Assembly: GCA_001898505.1 (NCBI GenBank)
Contig: MKTZ01000009.1
Location: 620,001-684,000, forward strand
Length of the DNA: 64,000 nucleotides
From: Sphingobacteriales bacterium 50-39
Lineage (GTDB): Bacteria > Bacteroidota > Bacteroidia > Chitinophagales > Chitinophagaceae
Direction: 5' to 3'
The notes beneath the pieces are model-generated. The model worked only from the letters and a program-made list of their open reading frames with translations, searched no databases and was not told the DNA's origin. Both the position numbers and the translations under genes were made by a program. This document shows, in pieces, positions 1 through 46,383 of the stretch. How positions within the stretch are numbered: position 1 is the stretch's first letter; every line of letters begins with the position of its first letter.

Positions 1-1
1 A

Positions 2-28875: not shown

Positions 28876-29516
28876 ATGCTTTTTATGAACAGGTTATTAA
28901 ACAAAACAGCGGTTATTACAGGCGGGAACAGTGGTATTGGGCTGGCTACGGCCAGTGAGTTTATTGCAGAGGGCGCCAGGGTGATCATCACCGGAAGGAA
29001 CAAGAATTCTCTGGACCAGGCAGTAACAGAATTGGGTATGCAGGCGCGGGGCATCGTCTCCGACACCTCGAACCTGAAGGATGTGGTACAGTTGGGGCAG
29101 CAGGTATCAGCTATCTTCCCCAAGGTGGATGTATTGTTCATCAATGCGGGTATTGCGAAGTTCGCTCCATCGTCTTGAATACTTCGATAAATGCGCACAT
29201 GGGTATGCCAAACGCCTCCATCTACGCCGCGAGCAAGGCTGCCGTACTGACCTTTGCCAAGAACCTTTCCGCCGAGCTGCTCCCCAAAAAGATCCGTGTG
29301 AATGCCGTCAGTCCAGGTCCCGTGGCTACGCCTCTTCACAGCAAATTGGGAGTGCCTGAAAAAGAGCATATGGAACAGACAGCCGGTCAGATACCTATTG
29401 GACGATTCGGCACTCCGCAGGAGATAGCAAAGATCGCCGTCTTCTTCGCGTCGGAAGATTCCGGTTTTGTGCTGGGCGCAGAGCTGATCGCAGATGGTGG
29501 TATGGCGACGCTGTAA
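28876..29516 (+). pseudogene. Short-chain dehydrogenase/reductase with internal deletion and frameshift
   Basis: The first part (to about 29170) encodes the Rossmann start TAVITGGNSGIGLATASEF and the NAG motif (LFINAGIAKFAP). It then reads into a TGA at 29176-29178. The second part, in another frame from about 29172, encodes ILNTS-like IVLNTSINAHMG, the catalytic YAASKAA, VSPGPVATPL, and the C-terminal GAELIADGGMATL. SDRs of this type have about 245 residues; here about 210 codons remain. The missing piece is the roughly 40 residues between the NAG motif and the catalytic Ser strand, and the join changes frame. All other motifs are conserved, so decay is recent. It is under the TetR-type double operator and was the probable first gene of a two-gene operon. 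An assembly error is the alternative. Confidence 0.8.
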
Positions 29517-29527
29517 ATTTGTTAAAA

Positions 29528-29535
29528 AAGGAGGT
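29528..29535 (+). promoter_or_regulatory. Strong Shine-Dalgarno sequence of the TetR gene
   Basis: AAGGAGGT, a full anti-SD match, lies 4 nt before the ATG at 29540. Such a site is rare in this phylum and fixes the start, although the frame is open to 29519. Confidence 0.6.
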
Positions 29536-29539
29536 CATT

Positions 29540-30136
29540 ATGCCAAAGGAAATCTTATTCGATGAGGAGGTAGTATTGCGCAGGGCGACAGAATTGTTCT
29601 GGACCAGGGGATACAATGCCACCTCCATGGATGAGCTGACCAGGATCACCGGGTTGAGCAGGTCCAGCATCTATAACAGCTTTGGAGGGAAGCATGCATT
29701 GTTCATGCGATGTTTGCGATACTACCTGGGTGATCAGCAGCGGCAGCTGCATGAGCTGGCCGGCAAGGTGAAGCCTGTGGTTCCACGGATTAGGGCGGCC
29801 TTTCAATATGCGGTGGAGGAGATATTGGCTGACAGGATGCGCAAGGGCTGCATGATGGTGAACACTACCACCGAAATGGTCAACCAGGATAAGGACATCG
29901 CGGCAGTTTCGGCAGAGAATATGGAGCAGATGGAAGGGATATTTGCGAATTGGATCAGCGAGGGGCAGGCTGCGCGCGAGATCAGTACTGCGTTTAATCC
30001 CCAGATGCTGGCAAGACATCTGTTTAATACATACAGTGGGCTGAAAGTATCGGGCAAGACCCGTCCGGACCGTAAGACGCTGGAGGACCTCGTTACAGTA
30101 GCATTGTCCGTATTGGAAGGCCCGGGGGCGTCATAA
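29540..30136 (+). CDS. TetR/AcrR-family transcriptional regulator
   Basis: A 198-residue protein starting MPKEILFDEEVVLRRATELF. The N-terminal HTH is typical: FWTRGYNATSMDELTRITGLSRSSIYNSFGGKHALF (described in two parts: GYNATSMDELTRIT and GLSRSSIYNSFGGK). The C-terminal ligand domain has RMRKGCMMVNTTTEM, as in the TetR_C_16-type group linked to SDR or oxidoreductase genes. The start is set by a strong SD. It lies 24 nt after the broken SDR, so both were probably one operon, controlled through the palindromes at 28812-28862. The TetR gene itself is intact although its partner is not. Its 3' end overlaps the DUF488 remnant on the other strand. Confidence 0.9.
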   Translation: MPKEILFDEEVVLRRATELFWTRGYNATSMDELTRITGLSRSSIYNSFGGKHALFMRCLRYYLGDQQRQLHELAGKVKPVVPRIRAAFQYAVEEILADRMRKGCMMVNTTTEMVNQDKDIAAVSAENMEQMEGIFANWISEGQAAREISTAFNPQMLARHLFNTYSGLKVSGKTRPDRKTLEDLVTVALSVLEGPGAS

Positions 30137-30415
30137 ACTTCTCCCGCAGAAACATTACCGTCTTCTGGTCTTTCAATTCTCCCGCTCGTCGATGTGCTGT
30201 ACGGAGATATGGATATCCTGCAGGGCCTGGCCGATAAGCTTGCTGCGGTGACATTTTTCCGGGCTGCGGTGGAGCGATTCCCTGTTGCATTGGGGATTGG
30301 ATTTGGAGTAAGGCATGGTGCGCACATCAGCGAGCCAGGAGATGTCGTATTTTTTAAGAAGGTCAAGGAGCTCGTTGATGGGACAAGTGCCGTGGCCGAT
30401 GGAGAAGACGGGCAT
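30093..30415 (-). pseudogene. DUF488 family gene, internally deleted and frameshifted
   Basis: From the ATG at 30415 the frame reads MPVFSIGHGTCPINELLDLL and WLADVRTMPYSKSNPQ, the typical DUF488 N-terminus (IGHST, DVRxxPxSKxNPxF). At about codon 48 (near 30270) it jumps straight to the C-terminal signature SPEKCHRSKLIGQALQ, which normally follows some 60-90 residues later. After HIDERE the frame is lost at about 30182. A neighbouring frame continues GELKDQKTVMFLREKFM to the stop at 30093. So there is one internal deletion (apparently in frame) plus a one-base frameshift. The gene cannot make a normal protein. The 3' part overlaps the TetR gene end. Confidence 0.75.
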
Positions 30416-30544
30416 GGGCTTTAGTTTAAAATTACTAAAAAAATTAGTATTTTTGAGAATTAAAGTGGTATAACTTTTATTACAACAGCACGCATGCCTT
30501 AACCTTTGGAAAAAGTTGGAAAAGAAAAATAGTAACTTTATTTT

Positions 30545-30706
30545 ATGAACCTCGAACAGGAAACTGCCAAAATTCTAGCTCCTTGCTTATATGTTCTTAA
30601 CAAAACAGGAAAAATAAGCAAGCACCACCTGAGCAAGATCCTATATTTTGCAGACAAATCTCACATTGCAAAATATGGAAGGATCCTTACTGAGCCAGCG
30701 AGATAG
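30545..30706 (+). pseudogene. 5' remnant of a Panacea (DUF4065/SocA-like) gene
   Basis: A 53-codon frame starts MNLEQETAKILAPCLYVLNK and includes SKILYFADKSHIAKYGR. This is the recognisable N-terminal motif of Panacea/DUF4065 antitoxin-type proteins (KLLYFADxxHLAxYGR). These are about 130-180 residues long. Here similarity stops at about 30685, where sequence of the following GlxA-type gene begins in another frame, and the remnant frame ends at a TAG. The promoter-like TAACTTTA ends 4 nt before the ATG. No toxin gene is visible next to it. I infer that a deletion joined this gene to the next one. Confidence 0.6.
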
Positions 30707-31643
30707 AGTCATCTTCTTCATCAACAAAGAGACCCACATCCTCGACCTGGCAGGGGCTGTGCAGACCTTCTACGAGAGCGGCGATTATGGTAAACCATTC
30801 GAGATCCTCTACGTCTCCGACAACGCCCGGCAACCCTGTTCCGCTCAGCTACAATTCACAGGACTCAAACGATACACCAGTATAAAAGTACTCCCTTCCG
30901 ACATCCTCGTCATCCCCGGATATGACCTGCGCCGTGTGCCTCCCCGGGAGAGCCGCACGTTCTTCAATTGGCTGCGACAGGCCGACAAGGCGGGCGCTAC
31001 CATCTGCTCCATCTGCACAGGAGCCTTTACCCTGGCGGCAGCAGGTCTCCTCAAAGGAAAAGAATGTACCACCCACTGGAAATATACAGAGCGGCTGCAG
31101 AAAGACTTTCCCGATGCGAAGGTGTTGAGCAACCGGCTGTTTGTAAAGAGCGGTCATATCTATACCAGCGCAGGAGTGACAACAGGATTGGATATGGCGC
31201 TCGCCCTGCTGGAGGAAAGGTTCGGACCGGAGTTCGCCTACAAAATAGCGCGGGAGATGGTGGTCTATATCCGTCGTGACGGTACCGAGCCACAGGACAG
31301 CATCTATATGCAATACCGCAGCCATGTCAACGACGATATCCATACCGTGCAGGATTGGATCGTACGTCACCTGCCTAAAAAAATAAAAGTGGAGGAACTG
31401 GCAGCGCTCATCTATACCAGTCCCCGCAATCTTACCCGTCAATTCAAGAAGTCCACCGGCATTACTGTCGGCGAGTACATGGAGAAGCTGCGGGTGGAGA
31501 AGGCTGTACACCTGTTGAACAGCAATCATAAAGTAGGCGCCGTCACCGAACAGTGCGGTCTGCAGAGCGCCAACCAGCTGCGGCATATTATCCGGAAACA
31601 TACGGGCAGTTTGCCTTCGGCACTGAGGAAGGGATTGTCCTAA
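30648..31643 (+). CDS. GlxA-type AraC regulator with DJ-1/PfpI domain
   Basis: A 331-residue protein. Residues about 18-190 form a class I glutamine amidotransferase-like (DJ-1/PfpI) domain: VIFFINKETHILDLAGAVQTF, DILVIPGYDLRR, the nucleophile-elbow CSICTGAFTLAAAGLL, and CTTHWKYTERL. Residues about 220-325 carry two AraC HTH motifs (VEELAALIYTSPRNLTRQFK and a second at VGAVTEQCGLQSANQLRHI). Such regulators often control stress or amine/aldehyde metabolism. The N-terminal 15 or so codons (ATG 30648 or 30675) are in DNA that belongs to the Panacea remnant, so the original start has been lost and replaced; the native start may have been slightly different. It lies 53 nt before the metal-domain DJ-1 protein gene. 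Confidence 0.85.
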   Translation: MQTNLTLQNMEGSLLSQRDRVIFFINKETHILDLAGAVQTFYESGDYGKPFEILYVSDNARQPCSAQLQFTGLKRYTSIKVLPSDILVIPGYDLRRVPPRESRTFFNWLRQADKAGATICSICTGAFTLAAAGLLKGKECTTHWKYTERLQKDFPDAKVLSNRLFVKSGHIYTSAGVTTGLDMALALLEERFGPEFAYKIAREMVVYIRRDGTEPQDSIYMQYRSHVNDDIHTVQDWIVRHLPKKIKVEELAALIYTSPRNLTRQFKKSTGITVGEYMEKLRVEKAVHLLNSNHKVGAVTEQCGLQSANQLRHIIRKHTGSLPSALRKGLS

Positions 31644-31684
31644 AACTGCGCAGAAATGTCCTAGCCACCTTGCGGGGGCGTAGG

Positions 31685-31692
31685 TATTTTTG
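31685..31692 (+). promoter_or_regulatory. TAnnTTTG promoter box before the DJ-1 protein gene
   Basis: TATTTTTG, an exact -7 match, ends 4 nt before the ATG at 31697. The start codon is secured by the signal peptide that follows it, so a leaderless transcript is predicted. No -33 TTTG is seen at the usual distance. Confidence 0.5.
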
Positions 31693-31696
31693 AAGC

Positions 31697-32512
31697 ATGA
31701 AAAAAACACTCATCTTCATCCTGCTACTGGCCGGCTCCACCCTCCTGCATGCACAAGGCCAGCGCTCCAAAGAAGACACTGCCTGGTTCTGTGGTATCTG
31801 TGGCGGCAGCTGCGATACGCTGGTCTTTACCAAGCCAGGTGTATGCCCTCACTGCGGCATGCCCCTCCTTCACATGACCTTTACAGAAAGACAAACTGTA
31901 TTAAACAATTATCATAAACAAATGACTATTTGCTTTTACCTGCAGGATGGCGTGGAAGTACTCGATTTCGCCGGACCGATGGAAGTATTTGCCTATGCCG
32001 GATTCCATGTCTTCACCGTCTCGAAGACAAAAGCCCCCATCGTTACACAAGGGATATTGAAGGTGATGCCCGATTATAGCATCGACGACGCACCCCCGGC
32101 GGATATCATGGCCTTTTTTGGCGGCAACGCGGGGCCTCCCTCGATGGACAGCAGCATCATGGCCTGGGTCAAAGGACGCAGATCATCTACTTCTTATTTC
32201 TTTTCCGTGTGTACAGGCGCCTTTATCATCGGCAGGGCGGGTCTGCTGGACAACCTCACGGCCACTACCTTTCACGCCAGCATCGAATCCCTGCGCAAGG
32301 CGCTGCCCGGCACAAAAGTGCTGTCGGATGTGCGATTTGTAGACAATGGCAAGGTAATCACCACGGCGGGCATTTCGGCTGGCATCGACGGAGCGCTGCA
32401 TCTCGTGGCAAAGCTCAAAGGTGAAGAGATGGCCAAAGAGGTAGCTGCTTACATGGAGTACGACAAGTGGGTGCCGGGTCAGGGGCTTGTCATTTCTCCA
32501 CAGGGATTGTGA
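31697..32512 (+). CDS. Exported DJ-1/PfpI protein with an N-terminal heavy-metal-binding-like domain
   Basis: A 271-residue protein. Signal peptide (1-20, ending LLHAQ), then a Cys-rich module (about 30-60) with FCGICGGSC and PGVCPHCGMPLLHM. Its PGxCPxCGMxL end matches the heavy-metal-binding domain found in CusB/CopA-type proteins. Residues about 75-265 are a DJ-1/PfpI domain: ICFYLQDGVEVLDFAGPMEVF, the elbow FSVCTGAFIIGRAGLLD, and TTAGISAGIDGALHLVA. The upstream gene encodes the same fold fused to AraC, so the pair probably shares a signal or substrate. Export and metal motif suggest a periplasmic role with Cu/Zn or thiol stress (inference). Ends in a 23-nt convergent overlap with the S9 remnant. 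Confidence 0.85.
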   Translation: MKKTLIFILLLAGSTLLHAQGQRSKEDTAWFCGICGGSCDTLVFTKPGVCPHCGMPLLHMTFTERQTVLNNYHKQMTICFYLQDGVEVLDFAGPMEVFAYAGFHVFTVSKTKAPIVTQGILKVMPDYSIDDAPPADIMAFFGGNAGPPSMDSSIMAWVKGRRSSTSYFFSVCTGAFIIGRAGLLDNLTATTFHASIESLRKALPGTKVLSDVRFVDNGKVITTAGISAGIDGALHLVAKLKGEEMAKEVAAYMEYDKWVPGQGLVISPQGL

Positions 32513-33909
32513 TCTCTTCCCCCCAGATGTATTTTGCAAACCACTGCCAGTTGTGCCATATGGCCGCCAGCCTTTCCTTTGGCTTGGTAATGCCATGACC
32601 AAAACCCTTGTAGATGATCAGCCGCAAAGGTACCTTTCTGTCCTGGAAACCGCGGTACAGCTCATGCGCATCCGAGATAGGCACACGCGCGTCCAGCTCC
32701 CCATGCTGTATCTGTGTAGGAGTCGTTGCCTGGTTGATCGCCGCGATGGGAGAAGTCTTCTCATAAATGGCCTTGTCTTCCCATGGCGTAGCTTTCAGAT
32801 ATTGCCGGGTGAAACCCCTTTTTTGCCAGGTAGTCAACCCCGCTGACCACATCCCACATATCACCTACGCCCAGGTTGCGTACATTGAGACTACGGAATT
32901 TCGAACCATAGCCGGCGGAACCCCGGTAGTTGACGCGGAGGACGAGGGCTCCTTTCTCACACCATTGCATGATCGGGTATACATAAGTGGGAATTGGATC
33001 GGGCCGGTCGACGCCCGTTGGGCCGCCATGGATGACCACCAATAAGGGATATTTTTTCTGCGGATCGAAATTGCGGGGTTTTAATCATTGCCGATGTAGA
33101 TCTCTGAAAGCCCGTCAAAGGCCCGACCTGAAAAAGCCATCACGCTCCCATCTTTTGTATAGCTGGCATTACCCACGATGTCAACGGGCAGGGACACCTG
33201 CTCAATCCTGCCGTTGGATGGGTCCATCTGAAAAACACCAGCTTTTGTTTTTTGAGATGCCATGAAGAAGATACCCTTCTTATTCCAGCTGGTCACAAAT
33301 TTATCCTCGTCGAAATCCGTGGCAATCTCCCTGGAAGAATGACTGGCCATATCGTAGATAAAAAGGCGGTTGTTGGTATAGAAGTTCGGTGTAGTGTCAT
33401 TGACGTTGCTGGCATATATGAACTTGTCGCCTTCGGGACTCCATGCAAGAAAATCATCTGAGGAAGGATTGGCGATAAGAGGGGTCGATGTCCTGGCGGT
33501 TATATCCAGCAAGGCAATATCCGAATGAATGGATGAGTTGATCAGTGGGTCAGGCGGCCTGTCATATGCAATAGATCTGCGACTTGTCACCTCTGTCCGC
33601 CAGGAAAACCAGCCATTTGCTGTCAGGACTCCATTTGGGCGAATTGCTGCTGCCCTTAGCCGTTCTTGTTAGTTGAAATGGTTTTTGCCCTTTTTGAGCT
33701 ATCCATATTTCATTGTCATAGCTGTTGTCTTTCCACTCTGTCGTGCTGACAGTATAGGCTGCAAATGCGCCATCGGGTGACAGAGCGACACCGCCTGCGG
33801 AATGGAGGCTAAGCCATTTCTCAAAACTGATAGAGGGTTGCGACTGACCGGCCGTCCGGACGACGATCAAGGATAAAAGGCAGTAGAACAACGTTTTGGG
33901 ATGAGTCAT
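32490..33909 (-). pseudogene. S9 family (prolyl oligopeptidase-like) peptidase, broken by several internal deletions
   Basis: The gene starts at ATG 33909 with a signal peptide and propeller sequence (GGVALSPDGAFAAYTVSTTE). Breaks: near 33575 the frame changes within QIY to IAYDRPPDPL; near 33083 GLSEIYIGND runs into a stop while a new frame gives LKPRNFDPQKKYPLLVVIHG; near 32822 VDYLAKKGF jumps to FTRQYLKATPWED. The last gap removes the conserved GWSQGGY-type nucleophile region. The catalytic Asp (HGELDARVP) and His (GFGHGITKP) regions remain. About 1.4 kb is left where such genes have about 2.0 kb. At each break the flanking protein is well conserved, so losses are recent and are deletions, not point-mutation decay. 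No active peptidase can be made. Confidence 0.85.
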
Positions 33910-34078: not shown

Positions 34079-34684
34079 ATGAAAACGAAAATAATAGTTG
34101 CAGTTTTATTCGCCGCAGGGCTCTCTTTAGGCGCATCCGCTCAACGGGGAGTGCATTTTAGTGGTGGCACGGCCATCCACGGTGGTGGGGTTTATCGTGG
34201 TGGCGGGGTGGTATATGCGTACCCCCGTACCTATGTTGGACTGGGATTAGGTTTTGGTTATGGCCCCTTTGGCTGGGGTTATCCCTTCTATGGTCCCTGG
34301 GGTTGGGGTTACTACCCTTATCCTCCTTTCTATTACGGCTACGGCGCTATGCCTTCACCCCTTGGTACGGAGATCAACAACATCAAGAGTGATTACAGCG
34401 CGCAGATCAAGGACGTACGTCACGATAAGACCATACCCAGAAAGGAAAGAAAGGAAAAGATCAATCAGCTGAAAAAAGATCGTGACGCAGCGATAATTCA
34501 GGCAAGACATGATTATTTCGATCAACACTATCGTCGGAACAGTAGCAACGGACCGCAGCCATACAATGGCAATGGTTCACAACCTCAACAACAAAAAGAT
34601 AATAAGCCGGTGAGTGGAAATGAGGAGCAGCCGGAATATCAAAATAGTCAGTCCTCTCCCGGAGGATCTACTACACAGGAGTAA
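34079..34684 (+). CDS. Secreted glycine/tyrosine-rich protein
   Basis: A 201-residue protein with signal peptide (1-21, ending GASAQ). Residues about 22-95 are very rich in Gly, Tyr, Pro and Trp (GFGYGPFGWGYPFYGPWGWG), without heptad or catalytic pattern. Residues about 95-150 are a charged helix (NNIKSDYSAQIKDVRHDKTI, KEKINQLKKDRDAAII). The C-terminus is Gln/Asn/Ser/Pro-rich and disordered. Proteins like this are common in Chitinophagaceae and are of unknown role; an envelope or surface-layer function is possible. An SD-like AAGGAG lies 8 nt before the ATG, again unusual for the phylum, and a strong terminator follows. It is therefore monocistronic and probably well expressed. Confidence 0.75.
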   Translation: MKTKIIVAVLFAAGLSLGASAQRGVHFSGGTAIHGGGVYRGGGVVYAYPRTYVGLGLGFGYGPFGWGYPFYGPWGWGYYPYPPFYYGYGAMPSPLGTEINNIKSDYSAQIKDVRHDKTIPRKERKEKINQLKKDRDAAIIQARHDYFDQHYRRNSSNGPQPYNGNGSQPQQQKDNKPVSGNEEQPEYQNSQSSPGGSTTQE

Positions 34685-34720
34685 GACTCTGTACAAACCG
34701 ATATCTTAACAACAATCGCC

Positions 34721-34749
34721 AGGCGGCCTCTTCGGGAGGCCGCCTTTTT
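34721..34749 (+). terminator. Strong intrinsic terminator
   Basis: Perfect 10-bp stem AGGCGGCCTC/GAGGCCGCCT with loop TTCGG, followed by TTTT. It ends the glycine/tyrosine-rich protein gene and touches the stop codon of the convergent DUF4159 gene. Confidence 0.88.
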
Positions 34750-35380
34750 AGTAGACGGCATTCAGCGCATACATAATAATATTCACCCCGAACTTTGTAT
34801 TGTCCTCCGCGAGAAATCGCTTGTTGCGAAAATCATAGTCCCATTCGCAGCCATAGTCCTTATTGCTATACAATACGCCGATGCGGTCTTTCACGACGAT
34901 GGCTTTCAGGTAATCATGTACCAGATCATCCCCCCATCCATTCAGCTCGAATGACGTATTGGGCGGTCCTTTTTCAAACGAAAAGAAGGAATGATATATC
35001 CTGTGGCTATTGGGTATTTTCTGCAGGGCGTTCGGCCCAAAGAGGGTATGCATCTGCGCTTCGAAACTGCGGGCAAAAAGGCCGTCGATGTCGTGATTGC
35101 AGTCGTCCGCAAAGACAAATCCCCCGTTCTGTACATATCGATGGAAATGCTCTCCCTCCTGGGCATTGAACTGTACCAGCTTGTGACCGCTGATGTAACA
35201 GAAAGGGTATTGGAAGATGTCGGAGCTTTCCAGGTCGATGACCTTTTCCTGCAGATTGACTGGGAGGGTAGTATATTCTATCAGGGAATTCAACAGGTTG
35301 GAGGGCATCCGCTGGTCGGTATCCCAGTCTCCCGACCTATATCTCAATCGTGCAAATGTGAACTTCTCCCCCTTATCCAC
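34748..35380 (-). CDS. DUF4159 domain protein
   Basis: A 210-residue protein with the DUF4159 pattern: FTFARLRYRSGDWDTDQRMP, then FQYPFCYISGHKLVQF, the GGFVFADDCNHDIDGLFA block, and RIGVLYSNKDYGCEWDY near the end. The fold is thought to resemble a glutamine amidotransferase, without known activity. DUF4159 genes commonly accompany MoxR-DUF58-VWA clusters, and here the gene is divergent from moxR. The only usual start codon is GTG 35380. The frame stays open upstream with protein-like sequence (EIKDKIINFKKITPPVDKGE) up to the moxR start, with no ATG in it. A longer protein may have lost its start or use an unusual codon. No signal peptide is present in the part seen. Confidence 0.75.
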   Translation of the reverse strand: MDKGEKFTFARLRYRSGDWDTDQRMPSNLLNSLIEYTTLPVNLQEKVIDLESSDIFQYPFCYISGHKLVQFNAQEGEHFHRYVQNGGFVFADDCNHDIDGLFARSFEAQMHTLFGPNALQKIPNSHRIYHSFFSFEKGPPNTSFELNGWGDDLVHDYLKAIVVKDRIGVLYSNKDYGCEWDYDFRNKRFLAEDNTKFGVNIIMYALNAVY

Positions 35381-35461
35381 CGGCGGTGTAATTTTTTTAA
35401 AATTGATGATTTTATCTTTAATTTCCTGTTTTTCCGTCAGATTTTTTGAACTTTTAAATGC

Positions 35462-36463
35462 ATGCGTTTGGAAATCGTTGAAAGTAACGTACAGTCATTA
35501 TTGGGAAAACTCTCACAATTAAAAAAGGAGATCCAAAAGGTTATTGTCGGTCAGGACGCCATCGTCGAAGAGATACTGATCGCCCTCATTGCCGGAGGAC
35601 ATTGTTTGCTGGAAGGCGTCCCGGGGCTTGCAAAGACCTTGATGGTGCGAACCCTCTCTCAGGCGCTGGATCTTTCCTTCAGACGGATACAATTTACGCC
35701 CGACCTTATGCCCACCGATATCCTCGGTACGGAGATACTGGAAGAGGATCATACTACCGGGCGTCGTTTTTTCAAGTTCAACAAAGGGCCGCTCTTTGCC
35801 AATATCGTACTGGCGGATGAGATCAACCGTACTCCTCCCAAGACACAGTCGGCTCTGCTGGAAGCCATGCAGGAGTTCGAGATCACCTATGGCGGACAGA
35901 CCTATAAGCTGGACCGTCCTTTCTTTATATTGGCTACGCAAAACCCTATCGAACAGGCGGGAACGTACCCTCTGCCCGAGGCACAGCTGGACCGGTTTCT
36001 ACTCTATATCAAGATTGGCTACCCTACTGCAGAAGAGGAAGCTACTATCCTTAGTCATACCACCGGCGCCCGCCGGCCAACCGTTCATCCCGTCGTCAAC
36101 GGGTCAGAGATACAACAGCTGCAAAAGCTGGTACGCGAGGTCAGCATCAGCGAGGACATGATAAAATATGTGGCGGAGATCATACGCGCCACCCGCCCCG
36201 ATACATCTACATCGGGATTTGTGAAAGAATGGATACGATGGGGTGCGGGTCCCCGTGCCGGGCAGGCTCTTATACTGACCGCCAAAGCCAGGGCCCTGTT
36301 CAGACAGCGCTACGCAGTGATCCCCGAGGACATCCATACCATGGCTTTTCCAGTCCTGCGGCATCGTATCCTGATGAACTTCAAGGCCGAGGCCGAGGGT
36401 ATCACATCCGACCAGGCAACCGCCGTATTGTTGAAGACCATTGAGCGTCCGGCTACATTATGA
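35462..36463 (+). CDS. MoxR-family AAA+ ATPase
   Basis: A 333-residue cytosolic ATPase. Walker A GVPGLAKTLMVR (about 57-68), Walker B NIVLADEINRTPPKTQSALL (about 113-132), sensor 1 FILATQNPIEQAGTYPLPEAQLDRF, and the C-terminal lid domain WGAGPRAGQALILTAKA. MoxR ATPases are chaperone-like and insert metals or activate VWA-domain partners. The next gene encodes the usual DUF58 (VWA-like) partner, overlapping as ATGA. It is the first gene of a seven-gene run and is divergent from DUF4159 with 81 nt between. An AT-rich segment with TATCTTTA near 35411-35418 may be the promoter. Confidence 0.95.
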   Translation: MRLEIVESNVQSLLGKLSQLKKEIQKVIVGQDAIVEEILIALIAGGHCLLEGVPGLAKTLMVRTLSQALDLSFRRIQFTPDLMPTDILGTEILEEDHTTGRRFFKFNKGPLFANIVLADEINRTPPKTQSALLEAMQEFEITYGGQTYKLDRPFFILATQNPIEQAGTYPLPEAQLDRFLLYIKIGYPTAEEEATILSHTTGARRPTVHPVVNGSEIQQLQKLVREVSISEDMIKYVAEIIRATRPDTSTSGFVKEWIRWGAGPRAGQALILTAKARALFRQRYAVIPEDIHTMAFPVLRHRILMNFKAEAEGITSDQATAVLLKTIERPATL

Positions 36464-37347
36464 GCGAATTACCAGATCACCATATTTTAATGGCCATAAA
36501 GGACCTGTCGCTGGCAGCACGCCGGACGATCGATGGTTTTATGGCAGGCATCAACAAAAGCAAGGTCAAAGGTCCCGGACTCGAATTCAGCCAATACAGA
36601 AGCTATCAGCCTGGCGACGATCTGCGCTGGCTAGATTGGAAAAGATATGCCAGGAGCGACCGGTATTATATCCGCGAGTCGGAGATAGAGACCAGCATTT
36701 CCATCCGCCTGCTGGTGGACGCCAGCAATTCCATGGCCCACCGGGATGGGGCGTATACCAAATTGGATTATGCCCGCCTGCTGGCTGCCAGTCTGGGCTG
36801 GCTGGCGCATATGCAAGGCGACAGTTTCGGTCTGTATACCTTCCAGGAGGGGGATGTATTTACGCTGCCATCACGAAAGGATCCCCAGCACCTGGCCCGC
36901 TTCTTTTACCAGTTAGAGAATATCCGGCCCGGGGGAAGGATGGGAGAGCCCAGCCAATACAAACATATTTTTACGGGGGAGGGGAAGAGGGAACTGCTGG
37001 TGTTTATCACCGATATGTACCAGCGGAATGGGGAGATCAGCCGTCTGCTGGAATTGCTTGCCGCCCTTCGTCATGAGGTCATCGTGTTTCACCTGATGGG
37101 AAAGAACGAGCTGGAGATGGATTATAAAGGCTATCTACGGTTGCAGGACCTGGAAACAGGCGAGCAGATACCTTTTTCCGGCCAGCAGGGACAGAAGGAA
37201 TATATGCAGCGGATGCAGGATTGGCTGGCGGCAGTACGGATGCAGGTGTTGGATAAACAGATAGCCTATACCATGGTGCGGATGGATCAGCCGCCGGGCG
37301 AAGCCTTGCGGGATTTTTTAAAACAACGGCAAAAACTCATCGGATAG
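36460..37347 (+). CDS. DUF58 (VWA-like) protein
   Basis: A 295-residue protein. The DUF58 signature is clear: GPGLEFSQYRSYQPGDDLRW, LDWKRYARSDRYYIRESE. It is followed by a MIDAS-type DxSxS in LLVDASNSMAHRDG (about 87-91) and a VWA-like fold. Metal-ion-dependent adhesion sites bind a partner protein; MoxR ATPases act on such domains. No membrane segment is seen, so it probably docks to the following membrane proteins. Its start overlaps the moxR stop, and its stop is 1 nt before the next start. Confidence 0.93.
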   Translation: MSELPDHHILMAIKDLSLAARRTIDGFMAGINKSKVKGPGLEFSQYRSYQPGDDLRWLDWKRYARSDRYYIRESEIETSISIRLLVDASNSMAHRDGAYTKLDYARLLAASLGWLAHMQGDSFGLYTFQEGDVFTLPSRKDPQHLARFFYQLENIRPGGRMGEPSQYKHIFTGEGKRELLVFITDMYQRNGEISRLLELLAALRHEVIVFHLMGKNELEMDYKGYLRLQDLETGEQIPFSGQQGQKEYMQRMQDWLAAVRMQVLDKQIAYTMVRMDQPPGEALRDFLKQRQKLIG

Positions 37348-37348
37348 T

Positions 37349-38626: not shown

Positions 38627-40700
38627 GGGAACGAATATACTATCAACAGTACGACGCAGGTGGATGCTGGAGGGCATCGTCTTTTATGTGCTGCTGTCCC
38701 TGTCCGTCAGCCTGACGCTTTGGATATTGCTTGGCAGATGGGGTTATGGGGCGCCTTTATATGGAATAGGGATATTCTGCCTATTGTCTTTAGCTGCTCT
38801 CCTGCTCTTCCGGGGCTGGAAGATAACGCTTGTCGATACTGCTCGTGCGCTGGATAGATGGATCCCCGAGCTGGAAGAGAGCAGCCATCTCCTGTTAAGG
38901 CCGGAGAATGACCTGGGCGCCCTGGAAAAGCTACAGGCAGCGCGGATAGAGGGCAGGCTGGATAAAGCGCAGCTGCCGCACCCCTTCCGGATCAGGCTGA
39001 TCATAAGTATTGGTCTGGTCGTAGTGGCTGCTGCGCCATGGGCAATAAAAAGTATTTCTCCGCCGGATACTCATACCGCCTCCGGACTTGAAAAAGCGAC
39101 GCCGAAAAAATCTCTCCTGCCTGCCATACAGACAGTGCGTATCCGTGTCACTCCCCCCGCATATACAGGCCGGCCCGTGCGAAGTCAGCAGGACCTCAAC
39201 ATACAGGCGGAAGAAGGAGCTCTTATCAACTGGGAGATACAGACCAACACCGCCGTGGACACCCTGCAGATCATCTTGTCCGACAGTGCTCAAATACAAT
39301 TACAGCCAGCCGGTCCGGAGCGAACGCTATGGCGCTGGTCCACCGTGGCGGCCCATTCCGGATTTTATCAGCTCAGGCTGAGCAAAGAATTTTCAGACCT
39401 GTACAAGATGGAAGTGATCAGGGACGAGGCGCCCCGTATCGTTATCCGCACTCCCAAGCCCTATACCATTGTAGATATAGGTGAATCCAGGAGGGTGCCG
39501 CTGGCTGCAAAGGTGCAGGACGACTATGGTGTCCAGGATGCCACCGTGATAGCCACCATTGCCACCGGCAGCGGCGAGGCCGTGAAATTTAAAGAGCAGG
39601 TATTACCTTTCAGGACCGTATTCACTGGTAATGTGCCAGCCTATGATCTGCAGCAAACCCTGGACCTGGACGCCCTGGGAGTTCATCCCGGAGATGAGCT
39701 ATATTTTTATTGCAAGGCAAGGGACAATCATGGTGCGGAATCACGCAGCGACATGTATATCATTTCACTCCCCGACACCGCCAAACTGATGAGCCTGGAA
39801 GGGCTGACCATGGGAATGAATATAAAGCCCGAGCTTTTCCGAAGCCAGCGGCAGATCATCATCGAGACCGAGCAATTGCTTCATGGGAAGGATAGCATAT
39901 CCGTGCAGGCCTTTAATGACAAGAGTAATGACCTGGGTGTCGATCAGAAGCTGCTGCGGCTGCGGTATGGTAAGTTCCTGGGCGAGGAGGCTGAAGAGGG
40001 TGGGTCCGAAGAAAGCTTTAAAAAAGCCGGCGACTCACCGGCTGATTTTGGCAATGCCGGAAAAGTGCTGGATGCCTTTACGGATAAGCATGACAATGCG
40101 GAGGATGCTACCTATTTCGAACCCGCTATCAAGCAGCAGCTAAAGGCTACGCTGACCGAGATGTGGAATGCCGAGCTGCGGCTGCGGACCTTCAAGCCCC
40201 GGGAGGCGTTGCCGTATGAATACAAAGCCCTGCGATTGCTGAAGGACCTGCAGCAGAAATCAAGAGCCTATGTGGCCAAGACGGGCGTGAAGCTGACACC
40301 GCTGGACCCGGCCAAAAGACTCAAGGGGTCCCTCGATGGTATTGGGCAGCCCGTGATACAGTCGACCAGGACGCAGGAGCCTTCCCCGGAAGATAAGTTG
40401 CGCATGGCGTTGAGTGTACTGGATCGACAAGACGCGTTTACGAGTCCTGCATATGGTATATTACAGGAAGCCGCAAGGCAATTAGGGAGACAAGCCGCGG
40501 ATCATCCGGGAGAATATCTGGCCGGCTTTCAGGCGCTCAAAAGAATATTGGCAGGAACCAAAGCTCCGTCCGATGCACATTTAGCGCAGCAGGCCCTGCG
40601 CAAGCTGGTTCCACTCCCGGAAGCAAACCCCTCCGCCCCCAACGCACCGCCGGATACAGGTCTCTCACAACTTTATTTTAATAAGGTGAACAAACGATGA
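38619..40700 (+). CDS. DUF4175-like membrane protein
   Basis: A 693-residue protein. Two TM helices near residues 17-60, a cytosolic segment with RALDRWIPELEESSHLLL, a third TM (about 127-145), then a periplasmic part. It contains TVRIRVTPPAYTGRPVRSQQ and LAAKVQDDYGVQDATVIATI, the strand pair typical of DUF4175-type proteins, then a long helical, charged C-terminal region (KLRMALSVLDRQDAF). Family members reach about 1100 residues; this is a shorter form. It sits inside the MoxR operon, overlapping its neighbours by 8 and 4 nt, so it is probably a stoichiometric part of the same complex. Confidence 0.75.
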   Translation: MAKGTNILSTVRRRWMLEGIVFYVLLSLSVSLTLWILLGRWGYGAPLYGIGIFCLLSLAALLLFRGWKITLVDTARALDRWIPELEESSHLLLRPENDLGALEKLQAARIEGRLDKAQLPHPFRIRLIISIGLVVVAAAPWAIKSISPPDTHTASGLEKATPKKSLLPAIQTVRIRVTPPAYTGRPVRSQQDLNIQAEEGALINWEIQTNTAVDTLQIILSDSAQIQLQPAGPERTLWRWSTVAAHSGFYQLRLSKEFSDLYKMEVIRDEAPRIVIRTPKPYTIVDIGESRRVPLAAKVQDDYGVQDATVIATIATGSGEAVKFKEQVLPFRTVFTGNVPAYDLQQTLDLDALGVHPGDELYFYCKARDNHGAESRSDMYIISLPDTAKLMSLEGLTMGMNIKPELFRSQRQIIIETEQLLHGKDSISVQAFNDKSNDLGVDQKLLRLRYGKFLGEEAEEGGSEESFKKAGDSPADFGNAGKVLDAFTDKHDNAEDATYFEPAIKQQLKATLTEMWNAELRLRTFKPREALPYEYKALRLLKDLQQKSRAYVAKTGVKLTPLDPAKRLKGSLDGIGQPVIQSTRTQEPSPEDKLRMALSVLDRQDAFTSPAYGILQEAARQLGRQAADHPGEYLAGFQALKRILAGTKAPSDAHLAQQALRKLVPLPEANPSAPNAPPDTGLSQLYFNKVNKR

Positions 40701-42253
40701 ACCTTTGGAACTATATCGTCGTATGTCTTTCCCTGCTGCTATTGGCGACGTTGCTATGGTGGGAGATCAGAAGGATCAATAGGGCCCGGCGGATTGGACG
40801 TGTCATCGCTACCATCCTGCTGGTGGCGGGCCTGGCTGCCATCGTCCTGCCCGTAACGTATACCGGGAGCCGTATTGCAGGAGGCAGGGAAGGGGTACTC
40901 CTGACCGAAGGCTACGATCCCGACAGCGCCCGGATCTATTTATCATCGGGCGTAGAGGTAAAAGACCTGTCAGACCTGCATCTATCAGCTCTGCACGTGT
41001 TGGGATATGGATTGACCGAAGGTGAGCGTGCCACAATATCCGATGTTCCAATAGTGTTCCATCCTTCTCCCATGCACACCGGTATCATGTCCCTTCATTG
41101 GGCGCAGCAGCTTTTACCGGGGCAGGCGTGCAGGATACAAGGCAGTTTTTACAATACCACCGGGGGACCTGTAAAGCTCCTGCTCTTTGGGGTAAGCAGT
41201 TTGCTGGATTCGGTCGAAGTGCGTTTACGGGAAGGGAACTTTGAACTAAGAACAGTGCCGGTTCAGGCCGATCGTGCTGTATACAGGCTGGCGGTCGTCG
41301 CAGGGAAAGACACCATAGAGCAGGAGTCCATCCCCGTGGAAGTGCTGCCGGCGAGATTTCTGAAGATATTGATGCTGGCTGCTTCACCGGATTTTGAGAA
41401 CAGATTTTTGGCGGGATGGCTTTCGGAGAAAGGACACGGCGTCGTCATACGGACTGCTATCAGCAAGGACAAATATGATCATGCCTTTCTGAATACACCT
41501 GCGATGGCTGTCGATCATCTTTCGTCCTCCCTGTTCGCTCAATTCGATATTGTCATAGCAGATGCCGCTGAGCTAAGGGCGATGGGCGCTGCAGAACATG
41601 CCGCTCTATGGGATGCCATTGCCGGGAAGGGATTGGGACTGGTGATAAAGGCCGATTCACTGAGTCATGACGCGGACAGCGTGCGCATGCATGGCGCTGG
41701 TAAAATACTGCAAACCACCTTGTATACTACCTACGCGCGGCTGCTGGCCGGAGAGAGAAAAGATTATGCTGCTCTTTGGACCCGTATCCTGCAACAGGCA
41801 GCCCGGGAGAAGGAGGGGGCAGAGCGCTGGCATTTTTCGCCTGCCTTGCCCGAAGTGGATCATCCGGTGAATATCCTGCTTCAGACCGCTGCATCGATGC
41901 CGCAGGGTCTGTTGGAAGAGGGGAATGGACCTGTTAGTGTATACTTTGCACAGCATCCTTTTTTACCTTTTTATTGGTCGGGAGTTTATTGGCCCAGGGA
42001 GGCAGGCTGGCAGGCGGTGAGTACGCCGCAAGGAACGCGAAGCTGGTGGTATGCCTGGAAGGAGGGGGATTGGGCAACTATTCATCGTCGGGACAGGCTG
42101 GAAGGGACACGGCGGTGGATCGCTGCACGGGGTGAAGGGAAAGGAGCGGTAATGGAGGCCGGTGAGGTACACAAGTTATTGGTTGCCAAGGGATGGTTCT
42201 ACCTGTTATTCGTGCTCAGCGGTCTGTTTTTATGGGTAGAAAGGAGGATTTGA
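40697..42253 (+). CDS. Membrane protein of the MoxR/BatA cluster, unknown function
   Basis: A 518-residue protein with two N-terminal TM helices (about 5-23 and 38-56), a long periplasmic domain, and a C-terminal TM (WFYLLFVLSGLFLWVERRI). The middle contains LKILMLAASPDFENRFLAGW, followed by LSEKGHGVVIRTAISKDKY, which recalls the amidotransferase-like module of BatA-related proteins without catalytic residues that I can identify. Start overlaps the DUF4175-like stop as ATGA. Together with the two preceding genes it would supply the membrane platform for the MoxR-DUF58 pair. Gap of 67 nt to the TldD start. Confidence 0.7.
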   Translation: MNLWNYIVVCLSLLLLATLLWWEIRRINRARRIGRVIATILLVAGLAAIVLPVTYTGSRIAGGREGVLLTEGYDPDSARIYLSSGVEVKDLSDLHLSALHVLGYGLTEGERATISDVPIVFHPSPMHTGIMSLHWAQQLLPGQACRIQGSFYNTTGGPVKLLLFGVSSLLDSVEVRLREGNFELRTVPVQADRAVYRLAVVAGKDTIEQESIPVEVLPARFLKILMLAASPDFENRFLAGWLSEKGHGVVIRTAISKDKYDHAFLNTPAMAVDHLSSSLFAQFDIVIADAAELRAMGAAEHAALWDAIAGKGLGLVIKADSLSHDADSVRMHGAGKILQTTLYTTYARLLAGERKDYAALWTRILQQAAREKEGAERWHFSPALPEVDHPVNILLQTAASMPQGLLEEGNGPVSVYFAQHPFLPFYWSGVYWPREAGWQAVSTPQGTRSWWYAWKEGDWATIHRRDRLEGTRRWIAARGEGKGAVMEAGEVHKLLVAKGWFYLLFVLSGLFLWVERRI

Positions 42254-42320
42254 TGGGATGAGCGGGTGGAGAATTTTATAAAAGTTCTTTAGCTTGGGGC
42301 CACAACTAAATGAGAAAACC

Positions 42321-43958
42321 TTGAAACGAAAAGATTTCATTCAAATGGCGGGGATGGGCCTTGGCTCACTCGTCCTGCCCAAACTTCCCTTCGGCACAAG
42401 AATGATCGACCCTTCCGAGGCGCTCAACGCCGGGATGGATGTTGCCGTAAAAAAGCAGCTGTCGGATGTTGCTCTAAATGCCGCAAAGGCCAAAGGGGCC
42501 ACATACACCGATGTACGCATTGGCCGCTACCTCAATCAATTTATTATTACACGGGAGAACAGGATCCAGAACATCGTCAACCTCGAATCGTTCGGAGTGG
42601 GCATTCGGGTGATCGCGGGCGGTAGCTGGGGGTTTGCCGCCACCAACGACGTTACGAAGGAAGGAGTGGCCCGTACCGCGGAAAGGGCCGTAGCTGTAGC
42701 CAGGGCTAACGCTAAGATCATCTCCGAGCCGGTGCAGCTGGCGCCTCAGAAAGGATACGGGGAGGTGAGCTGGAAGACACCTATCATCAAAAATGCATTC
42801 GAGGTGCCCATCAAAGAAAAGGTGGACCTTCTCCTGAATGTCAATGGCATTGCCATGAAGGGCGGCGCCAATTTTATCAATTCGGCCATGCTGGCCGTCA
42901 ATGAACAGAAATACTTTGCTTCCACCGACGGCAGCTACATCGATCAGGACATCCACCGTATCTATCCTTTTTTCAATGTCACGAAGATCGACCAGGCCAC
43001 CGGCAAGTTCCAGACCCGGCAGGCGTTGAGCTCGCCCGTGGGTATGGGGTATGAATATCTTACCGCCACCGACCAAGACAAGGTGCAGGGCGTTGTTACC
43101 CGTTATAAGAACCGTTATGACATGCTGGAAGATGTCAGGAATGCAGCGGCCGATGTCACGCAAAAGATCGCGGCGAAATCCGTAGAGCCCGGCAAGTACG
43201 ATTTGATACTCGACCCTTCCCATCTCTGGCTCACCATTCACGAGTCCGTGGCGCACCCCACCGAGCTGGACCGTGTGCTGGGATACGAGGCCAATTTTGC
43301 CGGAACGAGCTTCCTCACATTGGACAAGTGGAAGTCAGGCAATTTCAATTTCGGCAGCAAGCTGGTGAACATCTCCGCCGACAAGCTCCAACCCGGATCG
43401 TTAGGCGCCGTAGGCTATGATGACGAAGGTGTGAGATGCGGACAATGGGACCTGATCAAGGAAGGGATCCTCGTCAATTACCAGGCCATCCGCGACCAGG
43501 CACATATCATCGGACTGAAGGCATCCCAGGGATGCTGTTATGCACAAAGCTGGTCCGATGTTCAGTTCCAGCGTATGCCCAATGTGTCCCTCCGTCCCGG
43601 CAAGGACCCTCTCTCCGTGGATGATATGATCAGGAATGTGCAGAAAGGTATCTATATCATCGGCAACGGCTCTTTCTCCATCGATCAGCAGCGTTACAAT
43701 TTCCAGTTTGGCGGTCAGACCTTCTATGAGATCAAGGAAGGGAAGATCGTCGGTATGTTGAAGGACGTAGCCTACCAGGCAAATACCCGGGAGTTCTGGA
43801 ACTCTTGTGCAGCCATCGCCGACGAGCGTGACTACAGACTGGGCGGGGCGTTCAACGATGGAAAAGGACAACCCAGCCAGTCCAATGCGGTATCGCATGG
43901 CAGCTCGACCACCCGCTTCAACGGAGTGAATGTCATCAATACCGCCCGGAAGATTTAA
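42321..43958 (+). CDS. tldD: TldD-like metalloprotease with Tat-like signal
   Basis: A 545-residue protein. I chose TTG 42321 (KRKDFIQMAGMGLGSLVLPK), because it gives a Tat-type N-terminus, basic KRKDF followed by a mild hydrophobic stretch; TTG 42294 is an alternative. The zinc motif HExxxH is seen as HESVAHPTELDRVLGYE (about 312-330), with a possible third ligand Cys in SQGCCYAQS. N-terminal domain: GATYTDVRIGRYLNQFIITR. TldD/TldE heterodimers cleave unstructured peptides and mature microcins in E. coli, in the cytosol. A signal on TldD implies periplasmic action here. The TldE gene follows after 30 nt. Both are downstream of the MoxR cluster, probably one transcript. Confidence 0.88.
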   Translation: MKRKDFIQMAGMGLGSLVLPKLPFGTRMIDPSEALNAGMDVAVKKQLSDVALNAAKAKGATYTDVRIGRYLNQFIITRENRIQNIVNLESFGVGIRVIAGGSWGFAATNDVTKEGVARTAERAVAVARANAKIISEPVQLAPQKGYGEVSWKTPIIKNAFEVPIKEKVDLLLNVNGIAMKGGANFINSAMLAVNEQKYFASTDGSYIDQDIHRIYPFFNVTKIDQATGKFQTRQALSSPVGMGYEYLTATDQDKVQGVVTRYKNRYDMLEDVRNAAADVTQKIAAKSVEPGKYDLILDPSHLWLTIHESVAHPTELDRVLGYEANFAGTSFLTLDKWKSGNFNFGSKLVNISADKLQPGSLGAVGYDDEGVRCGQWDLIKEGILVNYQAIRDQAHIIGLKASQGCCYAQSWSDVQFQRMPNVSLRPGKDPLSVDDMIRNVQKGIYIIGNGSFSIDQQRYNFQFGGQTFYEIKEGKIVGMLKDVAYQANTREFWNSCAAIADERDYRLGGAFNDGKGQPSQSNAVSHGSSTTRFNGVNVINTARKI

Positions 43959-43988
43959 TCCTTTTAACTACTAACAAGAAATTCCTAT

Positions 43989-45323
43989 ATGGCAATTTTA
44001 AGCAAAGATGAAGCGCAAAAGCTGATGAAAAAAGTGCTCAGCTATTCCAAGGCGGAGGAATGTGAGGTCTCCCTCACAGGCTCTGACGGAGGTAATATAC
44101 GGTATGCCCGCAACTCCGTCTCGACCGCTGGTGAGGTCAATCAGCTGACCCTGGTCGTCAATTCAATTTATGGAAAGAAGTCGGGTGTCGCCACCATCGA
44201 TGAGTTCGACGATACATCGTTGGAAAAAGTGGTGCGCCGTTCCGAAGAGCTGGCCCAGCTGGCTCCGGAGAACCCTGAACATATGCCGCTCCTGGGGCCG
44301 CAGGATTTTCCCGAGTCCATTACATACGTGCCTGTAACGGCGGCCATTACGCCCGATACGAGGGCAGAGGCCGTGGCCAAAAGCATACAGACCTGCAAGG
44401 ATGCAAAGCTGCAGGCGGCGGGCTATCTGGAGAATACTACCAGCTTCAACGCTATCATGAACTCAAAAGGGCTTTTCGCCTATAACAAGGACACTGATGT
44501 CGTTTTCTCCGTCACCACCCGTAACGAGGAAGGCACCGGCTCCGGCTACGCCGCCCGCGGCTTTAATGATGTCAGCAAGCTGGATACCTTGTCCGCTACA
44601 AAGATCGCTGCCTCCAAGGCCAATGGCTCCGTTGGCGCCAGGGCCATCGAGCCGGGAAAATATACCGTGATCCTGGAACCCGTGGCCGTAGCGTATTTGC
44701 TGGAGAGCCTTTTCTTCGGACTGGACGCCCGCAGCGCAGATGAAGGGCGGAGCTTTATGAGCAAGGCCGGCGGCGGCAATCGATTGGGAGAACAGCTGAT
44801 GGATACGAAGGTGAATATCTATTCCGACCCCTTCAATCCCGATCTCCCTTCTTCCACCTGGAACAGGGAAGGTCAACTGCTCACAAAGAGGAGCTGGATC
44901 GAGAAGGGAGTGGTAAAGAATCTCAGTTATTCCAGGTATTGGGCAGACAAGAAAAAGGTCGACCCTGTACCAGCGCCATCCAATGTCATCATGGACGGAG
45001 GGACCGCCTCACTGGAAGAATTGATCAAGAGCACGGAAAAAGGCATACTCGTGTCACGTCTCTGGTATATCCGCATGGTAGACCCGCAGACATTGTTGCT
45101 CACCGGCCTGACGCGTGACGGTACTTTCTATATCGAGAATGGCGAAGTGAAATTTCCCATCAAGAACTTCCGGTTCAACGAGAGCCCTGTTATCATGCTG
45201 AACAATGTGGAAGCACTGGGCCGGCCGGAAAGAAGTATCAGCGTAGAATCCTACCGGAGCTACCTGGTGCCGCCCATCAAGGCAAGGGATTTTACCTTTA
45301 GTTCATTGTCGGACGCTGTATAG
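43989..45323 (+). CDS. TldE/PmbA-like partner of TldD
   Basis: A 444-residue protein of the same fold as TldD: SKAEECEVSLTGSDGGNIRYARN, ITPDTRAEAVAKSIQTCKDA and FSVTTRNEEGTGSGYAARGF. The C-terminal domain has GKYTVILEPVAVAYLLESLFF in place of the zinc-motif helix of TldD, so it is the non-catalytic subunit, as expected for TldE. No signal peptide is visible. If TldD is exported by Tat, TldE could be carried across as a folded complex (inference). It is the last gene of the cluster and is followed by a weak hairpin with T-run. Confidence 0.88.
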   Translation: MAILSKDEAQKLMKKVLSYSKAEECEVSLTGSDGGNIRYARNSVSTAGEVNQLTLVVNSIYGKKSGVATIDEFDDTSLEKVVRRSEELAQLAPENPEHMPLLGPQDFPESITYVPVTAAITPDTRAEAVAKSIQTCKDAKLQAAGYLENTTSFNAIMNSKGLFAYNKDTDVVFSVTTRNEEGTGSGYAARGFNDVSKLDTLSATKIAASKANGSVGARAIEPGKYTVILEPVAVAYLLESLFFGLDARSADEGRSFMSKAGGGNRLGEQLMDTKVNIYSDPFNPDLPSSTWNREGQLLTKRSWIEKGVVKNLSYSRYWADKKKVDPVPAPSNVIMDGGTASLEELIKSTEKGILVSRLWYIRMVDPQTLLLTGLTRDGTFYIENGEVKFPIKNFRFNESPVIMLNNVEALGRPERSISVESYRSYLVPPIKARDFTFSSLSDAV

Positions 45324-45359
45324 AGGGGTGGAGATTACGGCGCCGGGACCTCTATTTTT
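45321..45359 (+). terminator. Possible terminator after TldE
   Basis: TAGAGG (45321-45326) pairs with CCTCTA (45349-45354) around a 22-nt loop, followed by TTTTT. The stem includes the stop codon. Weak but well placed. Confidence 0.4.
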
Positions 45360-45475
45360 CGGTGATCCCTATTTGGTTTAAAAAATACGGATTTTTGGTA
45401 CCTGAAGTACTAATATTCGATAAAAAATAAACTAAATCGCCCACTCGTAAAAAGGCATTCTTTACTACGAGGGAG

Positions 45476-46305
45476 CTATCTGCTCCCTGCCGCAGCTGGG
45501 ATTTCAAAGTCAGCCAGGAGATTCACATTCGGGTCCGGGGTGATCGTTGCTGGTTCAGCTATCAGCGGTATCCGAAGAAAGTTGGTTTTGGTGGTGAGCT
45601 GGGTGGTATATGGCTTGCCGTCGATGGACAGCTCCAGGGGGAATTCAAAGGGTATTGGCTGTAGCTGTGTGGTGGTGTTGAACAAGGCGGAGTTGGCATC
45701 GTCATAATACCATTCCAGGCGGACGGAAGGATGACCCGGTGTATAGAGCCATTGGTGGAAGAAAGCGTGCAGGTCCTGTCCGCTGGCCGTCTCCACGATC
45801 TTTTCAAAGTCTTCCGTTGAGGCATTGCTGTTGCGGTAAGTGCCATAATAGGTAGAGATGGCCTTCCAGAAAAGAGAATCGCCTATCTTCCGGCGTAGCA
45901 TGTGCAGGACCCAGCCCCCTTTCTGATAGCTGTTGGGATTCAGCAGCTCCATATAATCTTGCTTTACGCTGGAGTCCACCACCGGCGTCATTCTTTTCTT
46001 TTCAAAGGAAAAGACGGTAGCTCTGTCTTTCCGCAGGCCAGCCTTCAGGTCGGCGCCGTACCGGCTTTCCAGGTAGCAATGGGTCATATAGGTGGCGAAC
46101 CCCTCACTAAGCCAGAGATGCCGCCATTGCGCCATGAGGGATTCGACTCCCGGGCTGCTGACTGAATTCTCATAGTAGCAGATGGCGCCGGCGTTCTCCA
46201 ATCCGCCAAAGCGGGTCTTGGATTGTCAGAGAAATGACGGCGTTCCCGGTGATCCTATCATTAGTGTTATACCAACGGCGCAAGGATGAGCAGACGAAGT
46301 GTCAT
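45476..46305 (-). pseudogene. M1 aminopeptidase copy with several internal deletions, zinc motif lost
   Basis: A degenerate duplicate of the intact M1 gene at 48874-50469. From ATG 46305 it reads MTLRLLILAPL, aligned to MALRLPFLALL of the intact copy, then breaks. A fragment NTNDRITGNAVISL aligns to DTSDMIQGTAFIHI. About 230 codons are then missing up to QSKTRFGGLENA. The longest remaining frame (45476-46201) matches the intact protein closely but lacks the 15 residues HEIAHQWFGDAVTET between SLMA and QWRH, an exact in-frame loss of 45 nt that takes out the HExxH zinc site. One further codon is lost at GAD-LKAG. The C-terminal half is otherwise conserved. The product could not be a working peptidase. 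Confidence 0.88.
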
Positions 46306-46371
46306 AACAAATGATTTACATAAATATCCCGTAAATTAGCAGGTATGTCCGAACATATCAAAGCTCCGCAT
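46302..46371 (+). repeat. Duplicated M1/DUF1345 intergenic block
   Basis: About 70 nt are nearly the same as 50466-50535, with roughly 4 mismatches by eye. The block includes both start codons, exactly 40 nt apart in each copy. It proves that the divergent M1-DUF1345 module was duplicated as a unit. Confidence 0.85.
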
Positions 46372-46383
46372 TTAAAGGGTTAA
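46345..46383 (+). pseudogene. DUF1345 copy reduced to 12 codons
   Basis: The frame reads MSEHIKAPH then LKG and TAA. The first nine codons match the start of the intact DUF1345 gene (MSEYIKAPH). The last three codons match its end (LKG, followed by a stop, with the same TTTAAAGGGTTA sequence as at 51180-51191). About 215 codons between are gone. The two ends meet at a short shared AT-rich sequence. This is a clear footprint of a large internal deletion. Confidence 0.8.

Follow-up and report, generated by a model that had tools for sequence, protein, structure and literature searches.

A deletion-dominated footprint of gene decay along a contig of Sphingobacteriales bacterium 50-39

The window analysed here is a stretch of 64,000 nucleotides (nt) from Sphingobacteriales bacterium 50-39, a member of the Chitinophagaceae, and corresponds to contig C9:620001-684000 of its genome (G000; 7.9 Mb in 27 contigs, with a listed completeness of 100%). 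Eight loci in the window have been cut back by deletion, with 12 sized deletions and one loss of a 5' part among them. An initial annotation had pointed to six genes, encoding an SDR protein, a DUF488 protein, a Panacea antitoxin beside a GlxA-type regulator, an S9 peptidase, an M1 peptidase copy and a DUF1345 copy; our analysis confirms that these have lost internal sequence and kept pieces of both ends, the Panacea case being a loss across two genes. The damage is wider than first stated. It had been assigned to positions 28876..46383, which is too narrow a span: it begins about 5.9 kb into the window, and further instances lie at 567.7, 598.2 and 611.6 kb on C9. Each deletion was called by comparison with an intact relative or, for the duplicated genes, with the intact copy. 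Among 58 relatives, the closest in a search with one window protein were G002 (66% identity) and G007 (65%), whose contigs C19 and C35, respectively, are collinear with the window. The damaged loci, and the intact duplicates used as references, are as follows.

28876..29516, plus strand: SDR gene with an out-of-frame deletion of about 109 nt near 29172 (reference, G014 locus L058)
30150..30415, minus strand: DUF488 gene with an in-frame deletion of about 204 nt near 30262, then a -1 frameshift (reference, G002)
30546..30703, plus strand: first 50 or so codons of a Panacea (SocA-like) antitoxin gene (reference, G007)
32493..33909, minus strand: S9 peptidase gene thrown out of frame by each of three deletions (reference, G029, L051)
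45476..46305, minus strand: decayed M1 peptidase copy
46345..46383, plus strand: DUF1345 copy cut down to 12 codons plus a stop by the in-frame loss of 645 nt
14416..15231, plus strand: regulator lacking its TPR block, open frame of 271 amino acids (aa) (reference, G002 orthologue)
about 5856..6017, plus strand: gamma-glutamyltranspeptidase remnant (PF01019 in the G002 gene)
48874..50469, minus strand: intact M1 peptidase, reference copy
50509..51192, plus strand: intact DUF1345 gene, reference copy

The retained pieces carry little other mutation, as had been proposed from the sequence. Both halves of the SDR gene are open (28876-29178 and 29175-29516) and each matches one part of the fold, although the left seed against the G014 reference is weak (14/24); the aligned retained blocks contain no stop. 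The first 51 residues of the DUF488 protein are 76% identical to G002. In the S9 gene, deletions of 335 nt near 33566, about 105 nt near 33098 and 155 nt near 32815 leave aligned parts without a stop, and the last of them removes the GWSQGGY stretch. Copies of this S9 family in 33 genomes are mostly long among the matches listed. Across all retained pieces, including those beyond the window, the other lesions are the -1 frameshift in the DUF488 gene, a 3-nt gap in the M1 copy and one doubtful stop in the tail at 611.6 kb.

In G007, an intact Panacea-domain gene (PF13274) is followed by a gene for a 139-aa protein and then by GlxA. Relative to this order, 804 nt are missing from the window, comprising the remainder of the Panacea gene and the whole 139-aa neighbour, while the beginning of the Panacea gene and the complete GlxA gene are kept. 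The first in-frame ATG of GlxA now lies within former antitoxin sequence. The 139-aa protein matched no Pfam family and gave only a weak PADLOC match (SduA model, E 0.004); from its position, it may be the toxin of the pair. The Panacea antitoxin-like gene and this partner are found at L042:7711-8673.

A DUF2961 gene that encodes a secretion-tail domain is flanked on either side by a copy of the M1/DUF1345 pair (window 45476-51192), and all four deletions of the duplicated pair sit in one copy. In its main block the decayed M1 copy shares 89% identity with its intact counterpart, which lies at a distance of 3 kb. One deletion of 45 nt, in frame, removes the HEIAHQWF stretch; two others, of 647 and 80 nt, are separated by a short surviving segment. 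Over 229 codons the two M1 genes differ by a synonymous divergence (Ks) of 0.353 and a nonsynonymous divergence (Ka) of 0.049, and the compared codons of the decayed copy contain no stop. The low Ka relative to Ks and the absence of stops suggest that the copy was long under selection and that its deletions are young; it thus appears to have been constrained until recently. The best DNA match of the DUF2961 gene in G002 lies about 20 kb further on. Beside the M1 copy, the stretch at 45406-45442 recurs in the same genome at C15:225737 (89%) and C12:154207 (96%) and may be a small dispersed repeat.

Three further loci had been named as possible cases, and two of them stand. The regulator has lost 795 nt in frame at 14574/14575, equivalent to residues 62-326 of the G002 orthologue and, judged by TPR matches in that protein, to the complete TPR block. 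What had been called an FtsX tail is a gamma-glutamyltranspeptidase remnant, in which residues 418-461 or so are joined to residues 640-657 of the 657-aa G002 protein by an in-frame internal loss of 531 nt; the 5' part of the gene is also gone. The third, a GH92-esterase junction, was rejected as a deletion case: neither domain is truncated where they join, and the two share one open frame of 1003 aa. Outside the window the following loci were found on C9 and on contig C1, the last being likely a twelfth case, which we kept outside the counts.

C9 567.7-568.2 kb: PepSY_TM gene with 141 nt lost in frame, a second frame-changing break and a missing N-terminus
C9 598.2-598.6 kb: two-gene remnant with deletions of 3119 and 158 nt
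C9 611.6 kb: 33-residue tail with one doubtful stop at its edge, the weakest case
C1:256678: SusC-like gene with a frame-breaking deletion of about 175 nt, then an open frame of 537 aa (reference 40% identical)

A candidate remnant at 521.9 kb proved to be an intact gene and was discarded. Genes of this region without such damage are listed here.

C9:618313-621321 (window 1-1324): GH92 glycosidase-esterase fusion, intact open reading frame (ORF)
29519..30136, plus strand: open TetR-type regulator adjoining the SDR gene
30675..31643, plus strand: GlxA-type AraC regulator, intact
34079..45323: nine undamaged genes (MoxR/DUF58/BatA-type operon and TldD/PmbA pair)

The nine genes at 34.1-45.3 kb, described at the outset as untouched, align over nearly their full length to G002 and/or G007 orthologues. 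Two that evolve fast (50-55% identity) are shorter, and their alignments to G002 contain gaps of 87 and 78 nt, both in frame and not polarised.

Gene loss in free-living bacteria is usually ascribed to small indels and rare large deletions, and a deletional bias with erosion of pseudogenes was reportedly described by Mira et al. in 2001 and by Kuo and Ochman in 2009. At the loci described here, decay by deletion appears to dominate over small lesions. The idea of a deletion-prone process is supported in so far as 12 deletions and one 5' loss in the window compare with one small frameshift; its confinement to the original span is not. Deletions recur within single genes, three in the S9 gene and three in the M1 copy, and 13 deletions would fall in eight or fewer genes with a probability of 0.0008 under uniform placement, assuming a gene size of 1.1 kb. 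In Salmonella, a single lesion is reported in 346/378 pseudogenes, with 141 short deletions and 131 stops among those 346, and losses of more than 20% of length in only a small fraction (PMC2916853). Here, by contrast, several lesions were found in 5/11 loci against 32/378 in Salmonella (P 0.002; the 5 and 11 counted by hand), and more than 20% of length is gone in 10/11 loci, also by hand count. Decay of the Salmonella type, in which a gene typically carries a single small indel or stop, is therefore not what these loci display, although the contrast is inflated to some degree because our search favours deletions.

Our estimate of how far this pattern exceeds that in relatives depends on the comparison used. 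Over 85 three-way orthologues, mean protein identity is 73.5 between this genome and G002, 73.1 between this genome and G007, and 77.7 between G002 and G007, which makes its own branch about 1.5 times longer (0.185 versus 0.123 and 0.129 for G002 and G007, or 42% of the three-way branch length). Seven of the loci damaged here have a syntenic intact reference in G002 or G007: the gamma-glutamyltranspeptidase, the TPR regulator, DUF488, the Panacea pair, PepSY_TM, the pair at 598 kb and the tail at 611.6 kb. If losses followed branch length, the probability that all seven would lie on this branch is 0.002. No comparable deletion remnant was recognised in the collinear contigs of G002 and G007, where the rows of the comparison were read and a few were opened. 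A tblastn scan with one pooled reference set, to which intact S9 proteins had been added, ran over 1.146 Mb from this genome, 0.62 Mb from G002, 0.52 Mb from G007 and 0.39 Mb from a further relative, G026. All eight raw calls of a frame-breaking deletion came from this genome. Three of the eight were false (C1 132862, C9 189541 and C9 33900, all adjacent kinase and response-regulator genes) and three were those of the S9 gene, found via the added reference, leaving the SDR and SusC-like genes. Calls of stops were mostly shadow frames or gene ends, with one-by-one checks for those opened. In a three-way test, conserved genes were damaged in 4/107 cases here, 1/86 in G002 and 1/91 in G007; after one row per genome was dropped as a paralogue (25-29% identity), this became 3/107 versus 0/177 for G002 and G007 together (P 0.05). 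Genes absent at the syntenic place number 23/107 here, 8/86 in G002 and 9/91 in G007, as is partly expected from the longer branch. Curation was manual, by a curator who knew the hypothesis, and the search methods detect deletions more readily than point lesions. Taken together, an excess of such deletions over relatives is likely.

Two further observations concern G002. A MocR-type regulator at C19:209345-210994 is broken by a small frameshift, and where G007 and the genome studied here have a single fused ORF, G002 has two adjacent genes (C19:169851-172055).

The junctions themselves offer some indication of mechanism. We compared 15 junctions, 12 of them in the window, with the best reference on both sides; the references are 74-90% identical, so the values are approximate. 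Microhomology averaged 0.87 nt, compared with 0.55 nt for a set of 3000 simulated deletions (P 0.10). The joins are thus near-blunt, and the largest microhomologies are 4 nt (DUF488) and 3 nt (DUF1345). No direct repeat longer than 4 nt was present at the 15 junctions, no transposase domain was found among the subset of window ORFs submitted to Pfam, and no 6-mer was shared by more than 3/15 junctions, where the random mean was 3.48. These results disfavour deletion driven by repeats or insertion sequences as well as a site-specific nuclease, and they fit end joining. A nuclease activity had been among the suggestions of the initial annotation. Another of its suggestions, joining over short homologies, gains no support as such, and what favours end joining in the wider sense is the near-blunt joins together with the genes for Ku (C1:1012382) and for LigD (C1:1007770), which lie about 4.6 kb apart; the LigD has both ligase and primase-polymerase domains. 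Fewer such deletions would be expected where Ku is missing: Ku-lacking G026 gave no broken-frame deletion in its 0.39 Mb, but a homologue in the reference set existed for only 71/325 of its ORFs. No loss of an AddB/RecB-type nuclease was seen, as PF12705 is present in all four genomes queried. GC skew on C9 is positive throughout the window, with no switch there that would mark the replication terminus.

A mechanism consistent with these observations would act on dispensable genes, such as accessory genes, a redundant duplicate pair and an antitoxin pair. Double-strand breaks in them would have their ends trimmed and would be sealed by non-homologous end joining through Ku and LigD. Deletions that reached a needed neighbour would be purged by selection, so that internal ones would survive and gene ends would be left standing, and a gene once dead would tolerate further deletions. 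We place roughly even confidence in this reading, that is, in a recent, deletion-dominated erosion of dispensable genes by end joining, with near-blunt joins and with selection sparing the neighbours.

Several observations weigh against it. Slippage or alternative end joining could equally have produced the microhomology of 3-4 nt at the DUF1345 and DUF488 joins and a CCAG at the Panacea join (by eye, with a 1-nt shift). Ku was found in 23/33 genomes of the genus, including G002 and G007, and the same search left 10 without it, some of these incomplete. Ku is thus present in relatives that lack the footprint in their syntenic contigs and is insufficient by itself, so another difference would be needed, be it in break rate, selection or time. 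In the strict three-way test, the difference is borderline (P 0.05). Uncurated counts of truncated ORFs are 15 here (13.1/Mb), 8 in G002 (12.8), 2 in G007 (3.8) and 2 in G026 (5.1), and raw non-coding remnants number 35, 18, 6 and 4 in the same order, or 250, 290, 204 and 58 per Mb of non-coding sequence. These raw rates fail to separate this genome from G002, so the excess depends on curation, and the proposal that such losses are more frequent here than in relatives is favoured by the syntenic contigs of G002 and G007, where no remnant was recognised, and not by raw counts.

Many of the same data could be accommodated by ordinary neutral erosion of pseudogenes, through several routes such as slippage and illegitimate recombination, at a normal rate in a stretch rich in accessory genes. 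The SDR/TetR genes and the S9 gene are missing from the syntenic place in both G002 and G007, the M1/DUF1345 copy is redundant, and the in-frame share of single-gene deletions (6/13) is about what chance would give (P 0.24). Per Mb, uncurated fragment counts are on a par with those of G002, and a bacterial deletional bias is well established (PMC2916853). The frequency of loci with several lesions and with large losses, set against the mostly single-lesion pseudogenes of Salmonella, speaks against it within the limits of that inflated contrast. We regard neutral erosion as a serious possibility, though less likely than not.

Two other explanations fare less well. Segments might have been dropped by wrong contig joins over short chance overlaps, which would account for losses without other damage and for joins near chance. 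Such an artefact would not be expected to pile deletions up in the same dead genes, to place all four deletions of the M1/DUF1345 pair in one copy or to leave nine genes at 34-45 kb whole, and random loss at this density would lower the listed completeness below 100%; losses are not random over genes, and we consider this explanation most improbable. If positive selection had repeatedly favoured the loss of these functions, acting on an unremarkable deletion process, this would explain why functional cores were removed (the M1 HExxH stretch, the S9 GWSQGGY stretch and the TPR block of the regulator) and why the antitoxin gene and its neighbour were lost together. These genes have no common function, however, and multiple deletions per gene are unnecessary for loss, which makes selection of this kind very unlikely.

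The footprint is a deletion-dominated variant of ordinary gene decay, probably brought about by end joining, and its novelty lies in the lesion spectrum. As in Salmonella, unneeded genes lose DNA by deletion and retained ends and synteny reveal the loss; single small indels and stops dominate there, while here the deletions are of middle size, near-blunt and often repeated, with few small lesions (PMC2916853). Work on Ku/LigD end joining describes deletions of tens to thousands of bases without long homology, as here, where the genes are also present (PMC7719229, PMC6989103). In Mycobacterium marinum, for example, Cas12a cuts repaired by this pathway gave deletions of 2 to 10,179 bp (PMC6989103). 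That knowledge comes from induced laboratory breaks; here there are footprints alone, and Ku-bearing relatives without them. A preprint on deletion-born fusion genes (PMC12803068) offers a parallel for the new open frames of the TPR-less regulator, the GlxA ATG and the 12-codon DUF1345 remnant, which may or may not be expressed or under selection. Fractionation by short deletions in maize likewise whittles away one copy of a redundant pair, in a plant after tetraploidy, and serves as an analogy only (PMC2893956). The portions of the literature on pseudogene decay, deletions and end joining that we consulted hold no description of such a footprint in Chitinophagaceae.

It is conceivable, though doubtful, that end joining is the main mutational force on unneeded genes in this lineage, with near-blunt deletions of 45-800 nt fixed more often than stops or frameshifts and occasionally leaving trimmed proteins or rewired starts, as may be the case for the TPR-less regulator and GlxA. 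Short open frames in this genome may be remnants of larger genes and should be annotated with that in mind. If near-blunt deletions of middle size do dominate, the genome would allow the shaping of gene content by Ku and LigD to be tested by comparing Ku-bearing with Ku-lacking congeners.

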